A DNA stretch of 6,539 bases from Salinicoccus sp. UBA3372 (GTDB lineage: Bacteria; Bacillota; Bacilli; Staphylococcales; Salinicoccaceae). Below the pieces are notes generated by a model. That model did no database searches, had not been told where the DNA came from, and saw nothing but the letters and a program-made list of their open reading frames with translations. Both the position numbers and the translations under genes were made by a program. This document shows, piece after piece, positions 1,846 to 6,350 of this stretch. Position 1 is the first letter of the stretch. The number at the start of each line of letters is the position of its first letter. Where the stretch lies: assembly GCA_002360325.1 (NCBI GenBank), contig DEQG01000066.1:4342-10880 (forward strand), in the 5' to 3' direction.

Positions 1846-2559
1846 TTGAATACAGAACTGCAGAATAAACATGTGGCTGACCTCGTTAAGGAATATCCAA
1901 GAACCGCTGATGTATTCCGCAAAGTAGGGATAGATTACTGCTGCGGAGGAAAAATCTCATTGAGTGAAGCTGTGGAAAGATGTGATTTTGACAGCGAAGA
2001 GATTTTTCTCGAAGTGGAGAGCAAGGTCAGTCAGTCGAGCAGTGAGGCGGGTCAGATCGATATGAAATACTTATCCATACCGAGCATCATAGAATATATC
2101 CAGAACAGATTTCATAAAGACTTGAAGGAAGAGCTGCTCAACCTGACGCCGTTCGTAGAAAGGGTCGCAGCCAGACACGGCGGAACCCAGCCTCATCTTA
2201 TCGCTCTGCATGACCTTTTCGAAAAATTTAAAGCGGAGATGATTGCACATACAGCTGATGAAGATCTGAATGTTTTTCCGCTGATTGTCAACTATGTGGA
2301 TGACAGTGAAAATGTTCCAGTTCCGGAAGTGAAAGAAGCGGTCCGGAAACTGGTGGACGACCATGATACGACCGGTGAAATTTTAATGCGCATGCGTAAA
2401 ATTACGGAAGGTTATAAATTACCTGAAAATGCGTGCGGCACATATACACTGGTGTACTCGCGCCTTGAAGCACTGGAAAAACAGACATTCGAGCACGTGT
2501 ACATGGAAAATCATGCTCTTTTTGAAAGAATTGCTGATTTGATGACGCAGCACGCATAA
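1846..2559 (+). CDS. scdA: ScdA, di-iron iron-sulfur cluster repair protein (RIC/YtfE family)
   Basis: Cytoplasmic protein that restores Fe-S clusters damaged by oxidative and nitrosative stress. The 237-residue product has an N-terminal ScdA_N/DUF542 domain with the YCCGG motif (31-35) and a C-terminal hemerythrin-like four-helix domain (about 80-232). The di-iron ligands can be placed by spacing against E. coli YtfE: H90, H135, E139, H173, H217 and E221. The gaps of 45, 4, 44 and 4 match YtfE exactly, and the one difference is about seven extra residues between E139 and H173. The length is slightly above S. aureus ScdA (about 224). The start is TTG at 1846, five bases after the GGGAGAGGA ribosome binding site (1832-1840). 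The gene is divergent from the transporter and is followed by its own terminator, so it is probably monocistronic. It lies just upstream of the Fe-S-rich formate dehydrogenase, whose clusters are plausible repair targets; that link is an inference. Confidence 0.96.
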   Translation: MNTELQNKHVADLVKEYPRTADVFRKVGIDYCCGGKISLSEAVERCDFDSEEIFLEVESKVSQSSSEAGQIDMKYLSIPSIIEYIQNRFHKDLKEELLNLTPFVERVAARHGGTQPHLIALHDLFEKFKAEMIAHTADEDLNVFPLIVNYVDDSENVPVPEVKEAVRKLVDDHDTTGEILMRMRKITEGYKLPENACGTYTLVYSRLEALEKQTFEHVYMENHALFERIADLMTQHA

Positions 2560-2626: not shown

Positions 2627-2655
2627 TTGTCAAAATAGTCAAAAAATGTTTTGAT
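2627..2655 (+). promoter_or_regulatory. Candidate promoter of the formate dehydrogenase operon, with overlapping palindrome
   Basis: The -35 TTGTCA (2627-2632, five of six) and the -10 TTTGAT (2650-2655, four of six) are 17 bases apart. A TG at 2647-2648 gives an extended -10. An inverted repeat, TCAAAA-N4-TTTTGA (2639-2654), covers the spacer and -10 and could be an operator. The predicted start near 2662 leaves a leader of about 45 bases before the gene. Motif evidence only. Confidence 0.5.
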
Positions 2656-2693
2656 GTCATTCTACATGGGAATGAGAATATCAAACTGTATGG

Positions 2694-2706: not shown

Positions 2707-5667
2707 ATGGCGGAAGTAAGAACAGAAACAGTGGACATCACGCTGAACGGCATGGATTTTACCGCACCAAGGAATGGCAGTCTGCTGAAGTATCTTGAAT
2801 CCAAAGATATAGACATCCCGAGTTTATGTTACCATCCGAGCCTCGGCGCTTTGGAAACATGTGACACTTGTATTGTTAAAGTAAACGGCGAGTTTGTACG
2901 TTCATGTTCAACTGAATTGAATAATGGAGATGTTGTGGAAACTGTCGGCAGCGAGGTTCACGAAGCACAATTGATTGCAATGGACAGAGTGATGGGAAAC
3001 CATGAGCTGTATTGTACAGTATGTGACTTTAACAATGGCAACTGTGAAATACATAATACAGTTAAAGAAATGCGTATTGATCATCAGGAATCACCACATA
3101 AAGCAAAAGGACATAAAATTCAGAGAAATGATTTTTACCGCTACGATCCAGATCAGTGTATTTTATGCGGCAGATGCGTAGAAGCCTGTCAGGATCTCCA
3201 GGTGAATGAAACATTATTGATCGACTGGACGCTGGAACGCCCGAAGGTGATATGGGATAACGATACGACAATCGATGATTCTTCATGTGTAAACTGCGGA
3301 CATTGTGCAACTGTCTGCCCATGTAACGCGATGATGGAAGTCGGCATGGAAGAGGAAGCCGGTTACTTAACAGGCATGCTCAAAGATTCATTCAGACCGG
3401 CAGTCAACGTAACAAAAGAAGTGGAAACAGGCTACAACTCACTGATGGTCGTTTCCGATGTTGAAGCTGAAATGAGAGAAGACCGTATAGAGAAGACAAA
3501 AACAGTATGTACTTACTGCGGTGTCGGCTGTTCATTCGATGTATGGACAAAAGGCCGTGAAATATTGAAGATCGAACCTCAGGAAGAAGCGCCTGCAAAC
3601 GGCGTCTCAACATGTGTCAAAGGTAAATTCGGCTGGGATTTCGTCAACAGTGATGAAAGACTGACAAAGCCTCTGATCCGTAAAGGGGACAGTTTCGTAG
3701 AATCCACTTGGGAAGAGGCACTCGACATCATAGAATCCAAGTTCAAAGATAAAATGGAAGAAAACCCGGATAAGCTGGCTTTCATCTCTTCATCCAAATG
3801 TACAAATGAAGAGTCGTATCTGATGCAGAAACTTGCACGTGGCGTAGTGGGCACAAACAACGTGGATAACTGTTCAAGATACTGTCAGTCACCTGCAACG
3901 ATGGGACTGTGGAGAACAGTCGGACACGGCGGTGACTCTGGAAGCATCACGGATATCGGCATGTCGGAACTGGTCATTTCCATCGGTTCCAACACAGCAG
4001 AATCACATCCAGTACTTGCGACGCGCGTCAAGCGTGCTCAAAAGCTGAACGGACAAAAAGTGATTGTCAGTGACCTGCGTAAAAACGAACTTGCCGACAG
4101 GGCAGATCTGTTTGTACAGCCGAGCCCGACGACAGACCTCATCTGGCTGTCGGCTGTCACAAAGCATATCATCGACCAGGGGTGGCACGATGAGAGATTC
4201 ATCACCGACCATGTAAATGATTTTGATGAATACTATAAGACATTGGAAAAATATACAATGGATTATGCTGTAGAAAAGACAGGTATTTCCAAAGAAGAGC
4301 TGATTGAAATCGCCGAATCCATCCATGAAGCTGAAACAACATGTATTTTATGGGCGATGGGTGTCACTCAGAAGCAGGGCGGCAGTGATACGAGTACAGC
4401 AATTTCAAACCTGCTGCTTGCAACAGGAAACTATATGAAGCCTGGTGCCGGTGCTTACCCGCTGCGCGGACATAACAACGTACAGGGCGCAAGCGACTTC
4501 GGCAGCATGCCTGACCGTTTCCCGGGTTACCAGTTCGTCACGGACGATGAAGTCAGAGGCCGTTTTGAAGAGGGATGGGGCACTGAACTGCCGAAAGTTC
4601 CCGGCCTGAACAACCATGAAATGGTCGATTCAATCCATGAAGGGAACCTGGACATGCTTTATCTGAAAGGTGAAGACATGGGTATTGTCGATTCAAACAT
4701 CAACTACGTACAGGCAGCATTTGAAAAACTCGATTTCTTCGTAGTACAGGATATCTTCTTCTCTAAAACATGTGAATTTGCAGATATCGTCTTACCGGCA
4801 AGCCCCAGTTTCGAAAAAGATGGTACATTCGTCAATACGGAACGCAGATTCCAGCGTCTGTACAAAGTTTTCGACCCGCTTGAAGGCACTAAGCCGGACT
4901 GGCAGATCATCATGGAAATCGCCAATCGTCTGGATGCAGGCTGGGATTATGACCACCCGGGTGAAATTATGGATGAAGCTGCATCACTCACCCCAATATT
5001 TGCAGGTGTCAGCTATGACCGCCTGGAAGGCTATGACAGTCTTCAGTGGCCGGTGGATGCAGATGGAACAGATTCTCCGCTGCTCTTCACTGAAGAATTC
5101 CCGTTCCCGGACGGCAGAGCACGCTTCTACCCTGTAGATTGGACGAAGCCGCTTGAATTTGGCGATGAGTATGATATTCATGTAAATAACGGACGTCTGC
5201 TGGAGCATTTCCACGAAGGCAACATGACTTACAAATCTGAAGCAATTACGAGAAAGACACCGGAAGTCTTTTTGGAAGTATCTCATGAACTTGCAAAAGA
5301 CCGAGACATAGAAGACGGCTCGATGGTCAGACTCACATCACCGTATGGCAGCGTGAAAATGAAAGCCGTCGTTACAGACCGAGTTTACGGCCAGCAGGTA
5401 TACCTGCCGATGAACGATGCAGGCGAAGGTGCAATCAACTACCTGACCAGTTCGTATGCAGATAAAGACACAGATACACCGGCATATAAGGAAGTGTCCG
5501 CAAAAATTGAAGTGCTCGAGAAAAAAGGAGACAGTCCTTTACCGAAAATCAACCACAGATACGGTAACCCGCAGCCACAGATCGGGGTTAACGTTGAACA
5601 GAAGTGGGCACGTAAAGATTATATCTTCCCTGGTGATATCGTTAAGGAAAGAAGGTCGAAAAAATAA
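2707..5667 (+). CDS. fdhA: Formate dehydrogenase catalytic (alpha) subunit, non-canonical ForC type, Mo/W-bis-MGD enzyme
   Basis: Oxidises formate to CO2; in the B. subtilis ForCE complexes the electrons go to menaquinone. The product has 986 residues (ATG 2707, AAGGAG seven bases upstream), close to the S. aureus homologue. Domains in order: [2Fe-2S] ferredoxin (C41, C52, C55, C67); His-Cys3 cluster site (H99, C103, C106, C113); two [4Fe-4S] ferredoxin motifs (C151/154/157/161 and C194/197/200/204); molybdopterin oxidoreductase domain from about 262 with a [4Fe-4S] site (C268, C271, C275, C303) and the electron-relay lysine K305; and a dinucleotide-binding domain (about 820-935, NNGRLLEHFHEGNMT). 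The metal ligand is C393 in NNVDNCSRYCQSPA, so this is a cysteine enzyme, not a selenocysteine one. The next residue is Q394 where canonical enzymes have histidine, and T564 aligns with the usual arginine. No signal peptide or Tat motif is seen, so it is cytoplasmic. The stop overlaps the next start (TAATG), giving tight coupling with the DUF1641 partner. B. subtilis names are yjgC and yrhE (forC1/forC2). Confidence 0.95.
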   Translation: MAEVRTETVDITLNGMDFTAPRNGSLLKYLESKDIDIPSLCYHPSLGALETCDTCIVKVNGEFVRSCSTELNNGDVVETVGSEVHEAQLIAMDRVMGNHELYCTVCDFNNGNCEIHNTVKEMRIDHQESPHKAKGHKIQRNDFYRYDPDQCILCGRCVEACQDLQVNETLLIDWTLERPKVIWDNDTTIDDSSCVNCGHCATVCPCNAMMEVGMEEEAGYLTGMLKDSFRPAVNVTKEVETGYNSLMVVSDVEAEMREDRIEKTKTVCTYCGVGCSFDVWTKGREILKIEPQEEAPANGVSTCVKGKFGWDFVNSDERLTKPLIRKGDSFVESTWEEALDIIESKFKDKMEENPDKLAFISSSKCTNEESYLMQKLARGVVGTNNVDNCSRYCQSPATMGLWRTVGHGGDSGSITDIGMSELVISIGSNTAESHPVLATRVKRAQKLNGQKVIVSDLRKNELADRADLFVQPSPTTDLIWLSAVTKHIIDQGWHDERFITDHVNDFDEYYKTLEKYTMDYAVEKTGISKEELIEIAESIHEAETTCILWAMGVTQKQGGSDTSTAISNLLLATGNYMKPGAGAYPLRGHNNVQGASDFGSMPDRFPGYQFVTDDEVRGRFEEGWGTELPKVPGLNNHEMVDSIHEGNLDMLYLKGEDMGIVDSNINYVQAAFEKLDFFVVQDIFFSKTCEFADIVLPASPSFEKDGTFVNTERRFQRLYKVFDPLEGTKPDWQIIMEIANRLDAGWDYDHPGEIMDEAASLTPIFAGVSYDRLEGYDSLQWPVDADGTDSPLLFTEEFPFPDGRARFYPVDWTKPLEFGDEYDIHVNNGRLLEHFHEGNMTYKSEAITRKTPEVFLEVSHELAKDRDIEDGSMVRLTSPYGSVKMKAVVTDRVYGQQVYLPMNDAGEGAINYLTSSYADKDTDTPAYKEVSAKIEVLEKKGDSPLPKINHRYGNPQPQIGVNVEQKWARKDYIFPGDIVKERRSKK

Positions 5668-6350
5668 TGGCAAAACAAACGAAAATCATTCATAAAATGA
5701 AAGTCGACCCTGAAGTCCAGCACGAACGAGATTTAAAAGAACTTGAAAAGCTCCTGGTTGAAAACCAGGAACTGCTTGAAAAACTTTTTGACATATTAAA
5801 CAAGCTCGAAGATCACGAAGTACTCAACATGGTAAAAGGCGGTCTTGCAGAGAGCGACAGTATACTATACCGTCTTTTGACCGCAGTAGAATCTTCAAGT
5901 GCGAGCAAATCCATTAAAAATGCATTATTGATGACCCAGCTGCTGGGCAAAATCAATATGGATGAACTTGAACCTGTCATTTTAAAAATGAACCACAGTA
6001 TAGAAGTTGCCTCTGAATATGAGTATCGTGACAGGGGCAGCGGCTGGTTCGGATTATTCAAAGTTTTAATGGACCCTGAGTTTATCGAAGGTTCGAATGT
6101 CCTGACACAGTTTGTTAAAGGTTTTGGTACAAATGCTGACGACCTTAAAAAGAAATATAAAGTGGAAGATTCTATTTCAACGATGAGTGATGAAGCTGAG
6201 GGCTACCAGTTATCCAAAGATGATTCAAAAGTGGATGACAAAAAGTCAGGCTCACTTGGCAAAGCAGCCGTTCTGGCTGCCGGTACGGGTGTCGCAGGAG
6301 CTGCAGCAGTAGCCATCCCGTTCATATTTTCAAAAAAGAAAAGTTATTAG
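5667..6350 (+). CDS. forE: DUF1641 protein, ForE-like partner subunit of the formate dehydrogenase, with C-terminal hydrophobic tail
   Basis: DUF1641 proteins coupled to ForC-type dehydrogenases were shown in B. subtilis to be an essential subunit (ForE) that lets the enzyme use menaquinone. This 227-residue product has a charged, helical, coiled-coil-like N-terminus (about 16-52, rich in E, K and L). The DUF1641 core motif GWFGLFKVLMDPEFIEG lies at 126-142, followed by LTQFVKGFG (146-154). A polar linker (about 158-196, many D, S and K) leads to an alanine/glycine-rich hydrophobic segment (200-221) capped by KKKSY at the C-terminus. That tail looks like a membrane anchor with the bulk of the protein in the cytoplasm. 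The ATG shares one base with the fdhA stop. A purine-rich AGAAGG (5650-5655) lies 11 bases upstream, rather far, so coupled reinitiation is likely. The family call is firm; menaquinone use and membrane anchoring are inferred for this organism. Confidence 0.88.
   Translation: MAKQTKIIHKMKVDPEVQHERDLKELEKLLVENQELLEKLFDILNKLEDHEVLNMVKGGLAESDSILYRLLTAVESSSASKSIKNALLMTQLLGKINMDELEPVILKMNHSIEVASEYEYRDRGSGWFGLFKVLMDPEFIEGSNVLTQFVKGFGTNADDLKKKYKVEDSISTMSDEAEGYQLSKDDSKVDDKKSGSLGKAAVLAAGTGVAGAAAVAIPFIFSKKKSY

Follow-up and report, generated by a model that had tools for sequence, protein, structure and literature searches.

How could a formate dehydrogenase (FDH) hold its substrate if both residues credited with formate binding and proton handling, a His and an Arg, were missing from its active site? 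An earlier note raised this question for a 6,539-nucleotide stretch of DNA from Salinicoccus sp. UBA3372 (contig DEQG01000066.1, positions 4,342 to 10,880; hereafter the window), whose FDH catalytic subunit was thought to carry Gln (Q394) instead of the His and Thr (T564) instead of the Arg. We found that the His is replaced, but the Arg is retained. Very probably, the window encodes a ForC with the gene of its partner ForE, in which His and Gln have been exchanged (Q394 and H589), formate is likely oxidised at R587 and H589 is the predicted source of a positive charge.

Active-site residues and identity of ForC

The forC gene (2707..5667, forward strand) starts at the ATG at 2707 and encodes a catalytic subunit of 986 amino acids. 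The protein matches B. subtilis YjgC, from the solved ForCE1 complex (PDB 8rqz/9gzq), with 1674 bits over residues 10-981, and its TIGR01591 score is 798.9 bits (cut-off 666.25). Pfam domains divide it into an N-terminal iron-sulfur (Fe-S) extension (residues about 1-255) and a catalytic domain for Mo-bis-molybdopterin guanine dinucleotide (residues about 262-935). Read from this ATG, the Mo-ligand motif is SRYCQSPA. C393 (3883..3885, forward strand), the predicted Mo ligand, aligned with U140 of E. coli FdhH and C386 of R. capsulatus FdsA (6tg9_A), and Q394 (3886..3888, forward strand) stood opposite FdhH H141 and FdsA H387. The replacement of the canonical His, as claimed in the earlier note, is therefore real, and the excerpts of PMC8808070 bear out that His-to-Gln is a hallmark of B. 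subtilis ForC, published in 2021.

The supposed loss of Arg arose from a miscount. T564 (4396..4398, forward strand) had been placed at the site of FdhH R333 and R. capsulatus R587. The codon is indeed Thr, and counting nine residues on from the Gln of MGVTQ does lead to it, but in FdhH the Arg nine residues past MGVTQ is R310, and R333-G334-Q335 lie 23 residues further on; the FdhH residues (Sec 140, His 141, Arg 310, Arg-Gly-Gln 333-335) were taken from the gene sequence of E. coli K-12. T564 faces FdhH R310 and FdsA I564, and its assignment to the R333/R587 site was rejected. R587-G588-H589 of the window (codons 4465-4473) aligned with FdhH R333-G334-Q335, so that R587 (4465..4467, forward strand) is the retained active-site Arg, opposite FdsA R587, and H589 (4471..4473, forward strand) occupies the position of FdhH Q335 as the reciprocal partner of Q394. 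At the sequence level, R587 and H589 thus supply the Arg and His that the earlier note had said would overturn its claim if found at these places. YjgC itself reads MGVTQHIGGSDTSTAI and YPLRGHNN, and therefore the solved ForC shares Thr, Arg and His with the window protein.

Conservation of these positions was counted in an alignment of 544 rows (543 distinct), consisting of the window protein, FdhH, 182 FDH-like frames of fetched loci and 360 protein-search matches; the rows are not independent, since sequences related to the three queries are over-represented and both the window protein and FdhH come up a second time among the locus frames. C393 and H589 were invariant in the ForC rows (333/333 each). 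Q394 was found in all 333 by construction, because the rows were grouped on that residue, and its column holds His in 123/123 haloarchaeal rows and in 68/68 other rows with C-H and R-G-Q (CH/RGQ; all except the haloarchaeal search hits, L148 and L150). Arg at 587 was present in every row of the three groups (333/333, 123/123 and 68/68). T564 is a residue of the ForC lineage (Thr in 330/333 rows), and the column of FdhH R310 is not conserved in the 68 CH/RGQ rows (L 25, M 16, F 7, R 6, I 4, K 4, T 2, A 2, Y 1, G 1). As a control, five nitrate-reductase-like rows (CM/TGQ) carry Met after the Cys and Thr in the Arg column; therefore, the alignment was able to reveal a true Arg-to-Thr change. That neither His nor Arg is left and that formate is held otherwise is hardly credible, although Q394 and the Thr codon are real, because T564 faces R310 and the Arg is invariant in ForC. 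With R587 retained, the premise of the puzzle fails and the question of how formate is held without both residues falls away. By alignment, then, the window site reads Cys-Gln ... Arg-Gly-His, with His and Gln having changed places. In the AlphaFold2 model of ForC (mean predicted local distance difference test, pLDDT, 71.3), the active-site loops are too weak to place H589.

Other features also place the protein in ForC. It combines CQ with RGH, and a gene for a ForE homologue adjoins it. When motif columns were removed from the tree, the protein fell inside the CQ/RGH clade (support 100/100, 21 rows). Its extension carries ligands for one [2Fe-2S] and three [4Fe-4S] clusters, namely C41 C52 C55 C67, H99 C103 C106 C113, and the C151-C161 and C194-C204 groups, which are invariant in 28 aligned sequences and which we presume to belong to these particular clusters. 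Compared with the canonical enzymes FdhH and FdsA, it has the conserved second-sphere Arg (R587), but Gln instead of His after the Mo-ligand residue. A site of the Cys-type nitrate reductases (Nap/Nas), which have Met after the Cys and Thr in the Arg column, was rejected, since the window protein has Gln and Arg. These sequence features identify the window FDH as an ordinary ForC with an already described form of active site. A second full-length ForC was not found in its own genome, an assembly of 2.05 Mb that is 81% complete.

The nearest systems are B. subtilis ForCE1 (YjgC-YjgD; PDB 8rqz, 8rr0, 9gzq) and ForCE2. R. capsulatus FdsA (6tg9), which is NAD-linked according to the PDB title, has the same domain order as the window ForC and R587 at the same alignment place, but it has C-H and R-G-Q where the window has C-Q and R-G-H. 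E. coli FdhH (fdhF; 1aa6) has Sec-His and R-G-Q and lacks the N-terminal extension. According to the excerpts of PMC8808070, YjgC and YrhE keep the conserved Arg, the His beside it may preserve positive charge, the active-site classes are C/UH RGQ or C/UQ RGH, C/UH RGE and C/UH RGH, and 176 CQ/RGH sequences were counted; the mechanism of CQ/RGH was left open by the authors. The same source reports that formate is oxidised by ForCE1 and ForCE2, whose kinetics are comparable to those of other FDHs, and that ForCE has a DUF1641 partner and reduces menaquinone. The description of ForCE is repeated in a 2026 review (PMC13397495). Among the matches listed for ForCE and YjgC/DUF1641 (in one of the searches the best 20 of 118), PMC8808070 was the only primary ForCE paper; no paper was found under the names of the FdhH residues.

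The His/Gln exchange and the predicted role of H589

By the residue after the Cys and residues 587-589, the 544 rows comprise 333 CQ/RGH, 118 CH/RGQ, 85 CH/RGH and five CM/TGQ, with single rows of CH/YGE, CS/EGQ and CH/RGL; CQ/RGQ was found in none of them. The 85 CH/RGH rows are 72 haloarchaeal search matches, 11 FdhF/YdeP-type rows, L146 and L165. The genome of the window also encodes an FdhF/YdeP-family oxidoreductase with CH/RGH, about 2 kb from fdhD (loci L083, G000:C121:17763-19244, and L201).

The main tree was built from 54 representatives with columns 394, 564 and 589 removed; it omits the 11 FdhF/YdeP-type rows, the three odd rows (HRGL, HYGE, SEGQ) and the five CM/TGQ rows. In a first tree of 57 rows, a branch of length 3.37 led to the FdhF/YdeP-type rows; the fork between them, ForC and the haloarchaea had a support of only 92 and was drawn open. 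In the main tree, ForC forms a single clade (100/100), and its sister is a clade of haloarchaeal FDH-like enzymes (L146, L148, P0122 and others; 100/99). Unlike ForC, the haloarchaeal enzymes keep the His after the Cys in 123/123 rows; many have R-G-H, residue 589 alternating between His (73 rows) and Gln (50 rows). In L146, L148 and L150 a NuoF-like gene adjoins the FDH-like gene. The tree requires one change to CQ; therefore, the pairing is one event plus maintenance, and coevolution through repeated swaps was rejected. From this tree, an intermediate with two histidines may plausibly have existed before the Cys-adjacent His was lost. L165, an isolated CH/RGH enzyme from a bacterium that carries the N-terminal Fe-S extension, lies outside both the ForC and the haloarchaeal clade, and therefore RGH may have arisen more than once.

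A single event is also what would be expected if the pair were historical, with H589 predating the loss of the Cys-adjacent His and having no catalytic part because the Arg suffices. The mixture of CH/RGH and CH/RGQ in the sister clade fits this explanation, as does the R. capsulatus H387M variant, which is still active according to the excerpts of PMC9804402. But H589 is invariant in ForC while the same column varies in the haloarchaea, and CQ/RGQ never occurs. We consider a purely historical pair unlikely, though worth serious weight. H589 would likely take over the role of the missing His.

In the mechanism that we favour, R587 would bind formate, oxidation would take place at the Mo site, for which C393 is the predicted ligand, and H589 would give the second positive charge, which in canonical enzymes comes from the Cys-adjacent His. 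Electrons would pass the [4Fe-4S] cluster of the catalytic domain and then the clusters of the N-terminal extension; their acceptor would be menaquinone at the interface of ForC and ForE, following the description of B. subtilis ForCE1. By analogy with the B. subtilis work, the window enzyme would be a formate:menaquinone oxidoreductase. Excerpts of the literature on the two residues report that R. capsulatus R587K has a much larger Km for formate (PMC9804402) and that the counterparts of His and Arg in nitrate reductases are Met and Thr (PMC10385643).

The surroundings of the site are also distinctive in ForC. Among 674 columns of the catalytic domain, 217 hold one residue at >= 97% in ForC, and 23 of these 217 are ForC signatures, in which that residue occurs in <= 5% of both other groups; T564, S563, Y584, S390, Y392 and D410 are among them. 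Twelve of the 23 cluster near Cys393, MGVTQ-T564 and R587, in three segments that were picked after the columns had been viewed; the hypergeometric p of 1.3e-4, reckoned among conserved columns, is therefore descriptive. A pocket rebuilt in this way, on a fold common to nitrate reductases, might serve another small substrate in vivo, formate oxidation being incidental. This is improbable, since ForCE1 and ForCE2 have formate kinetics comparable to those of other FDHs (PMC8808070, excerpts) and the Met/Thr pair seen in the nitrate-reductase-like rows is missing from the window protein.

Going beyond the favoured mechanism, we tentatively propose that in the ForC line the His moved from the Cys side to the Arg side via a CH/RGH ancestor, that about a dozen neighbours were rebuilt and that ForE of the Staphylococcaceae became tail-anchored; taken as a whole, this is possible but doubtful. 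The ancestor would have resembled present haloarchaeal forms, the residues rebuilt on the same branch would be SRYCQ-PAT, GD-G, ST and YP-RGH, and proton handling and gating would proceed from the opposite wall.

ForE and its C-terminal tail

The forE gene (5667..6350, forward strand) encodes a partner subunit of 227 amino acids, compared with 186 in B. subtilis ForCE1, and its start overlaps the forC stop by one base. It matches ForE1 (8rqz_A) at E 3.2e-23 over residues 1-163. By sequence, the window thus contains a ForCE operon. No match to Pfam DUF1641 (PF07849) was found in the window ForE at E <= 1. The ForE of Pantoea also falls below the DUF1641 cut-off (18.2 vs 21), so this model is narrow, and the homology to ForE1, as judged from the alignment, stands without a DUF1641 match. 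A ForE-like frame lies 3' of forC in 92/92 ForC loci, by a model that was refined on these same loci. At E <= 1e-3 such a frame was found in 0/80 CH loci; one weaker match (E 0.01) came from a haloarchaeal plasmid, L153 (2824-7885), in which a CH/RGQ FDH, a DUF1641 gene above the Pfam cut-off and a second molybdopterin oxidoreductase, with CH/RGL, stand in a row. Since the DUF1641 gene lies beside a CH/RGQ enzyme, partner and swap may be separable.

The C-terminal end of the window ForE, GKAAVLAAGTGVAGAAAVAIPFIFSKKKSY, is a hydrophobic, basic-ended tail by hydropathy (6270..6347, forward strand), and we propose it as a candidate membrane anchor. Under the criterion of a C-terminal 17-residue stretch with a mean hydropathy >= 1.3, 58 of the 92 ForE frames have the tail, among them all 29 that belong to Staphylococcaceae or to the family group of the window; the other 34, which include that of B. 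mojavensis (L072), lack it. Several results weigh against an anchor, which is why it is put forward as a proposal only. The same criterion is satisfied by 41/174 other downstream frames; a stricter test (shuffle p <= 0.01) was passed by 39/90 ForE, and the window ForE fails it (p 0.023); and ForCE sequences are described as having no predicted transmembrane segment in the excerpts of PMC8808070. The AlphaFold2 model of ForE (mean pLDDT 60.8; residues 167-219 below 50) speaks neither for nor against a helix in the tail.

Neighbouring genes, regulation and significance

Directly 5' of forC lies a RIC/ScdA-type iron-sulfur repair gene (1846-2559, forward strand; TIGR03652 above cut-off), an arrangement that is not conserved (scdA beside forC in 3/100 ForC loci examined). 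The reverse strand carries genes for a ProV-like ABC transporter ATPase (681-1637), whose TIGR01186 score is slightly below the cut-off, and for a BPD-type permease (1-684) that is cut by the edge of the window. The closest genome matches to the window are Salinicoccus sp. YB14-2 and Lacicoccus qingdaonensis, both at 96% identity. A SigB-like promoter motif, GTTTTG-N14-GGGAAT (2648-2673, forward strand), stands 33 bases 5' of the forC ATG, matched to what we take to be the SigB consensus. Such motifs were found in 54/76 ForC upstream regions (76/92 loci, since a CYHP anchor was required), compared with a shuffle mean of 0.9 (largest 4), and on the reverse strand in 10/76. A second match lies inside forC at 3692; two matches were reached by 6/200 shuffles. 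The window's own genome encodes a SigB-type factor and FdhD, and forCE1 is a member of the SigB regulon (PMC8808070, excerpts).

In summary, a false puzzle, an FDH lacking both active-site residues, is removed, and the published CQ/RGH site takes its place. The pairing counts, the tree with its sister clade and the signature columns are additions beyond the published ForC work. The pair counts, the CH/RGH-bearing sister group and the 23 signature columns provide concrete positions at which the contested functions of His and Arg in the second sphere could be probed. What interest remains is modest and concerns the ForE tail and the route by which the site evolved. If ForE tails are anchors, this would explain how a complex that is soluble gains access, in part of the family, to menaquinone in the membrane, and in the Staphylococcaceae a cytosolic enzyme would become a membrane-tethered formate:menaquinone oxidoreductase.
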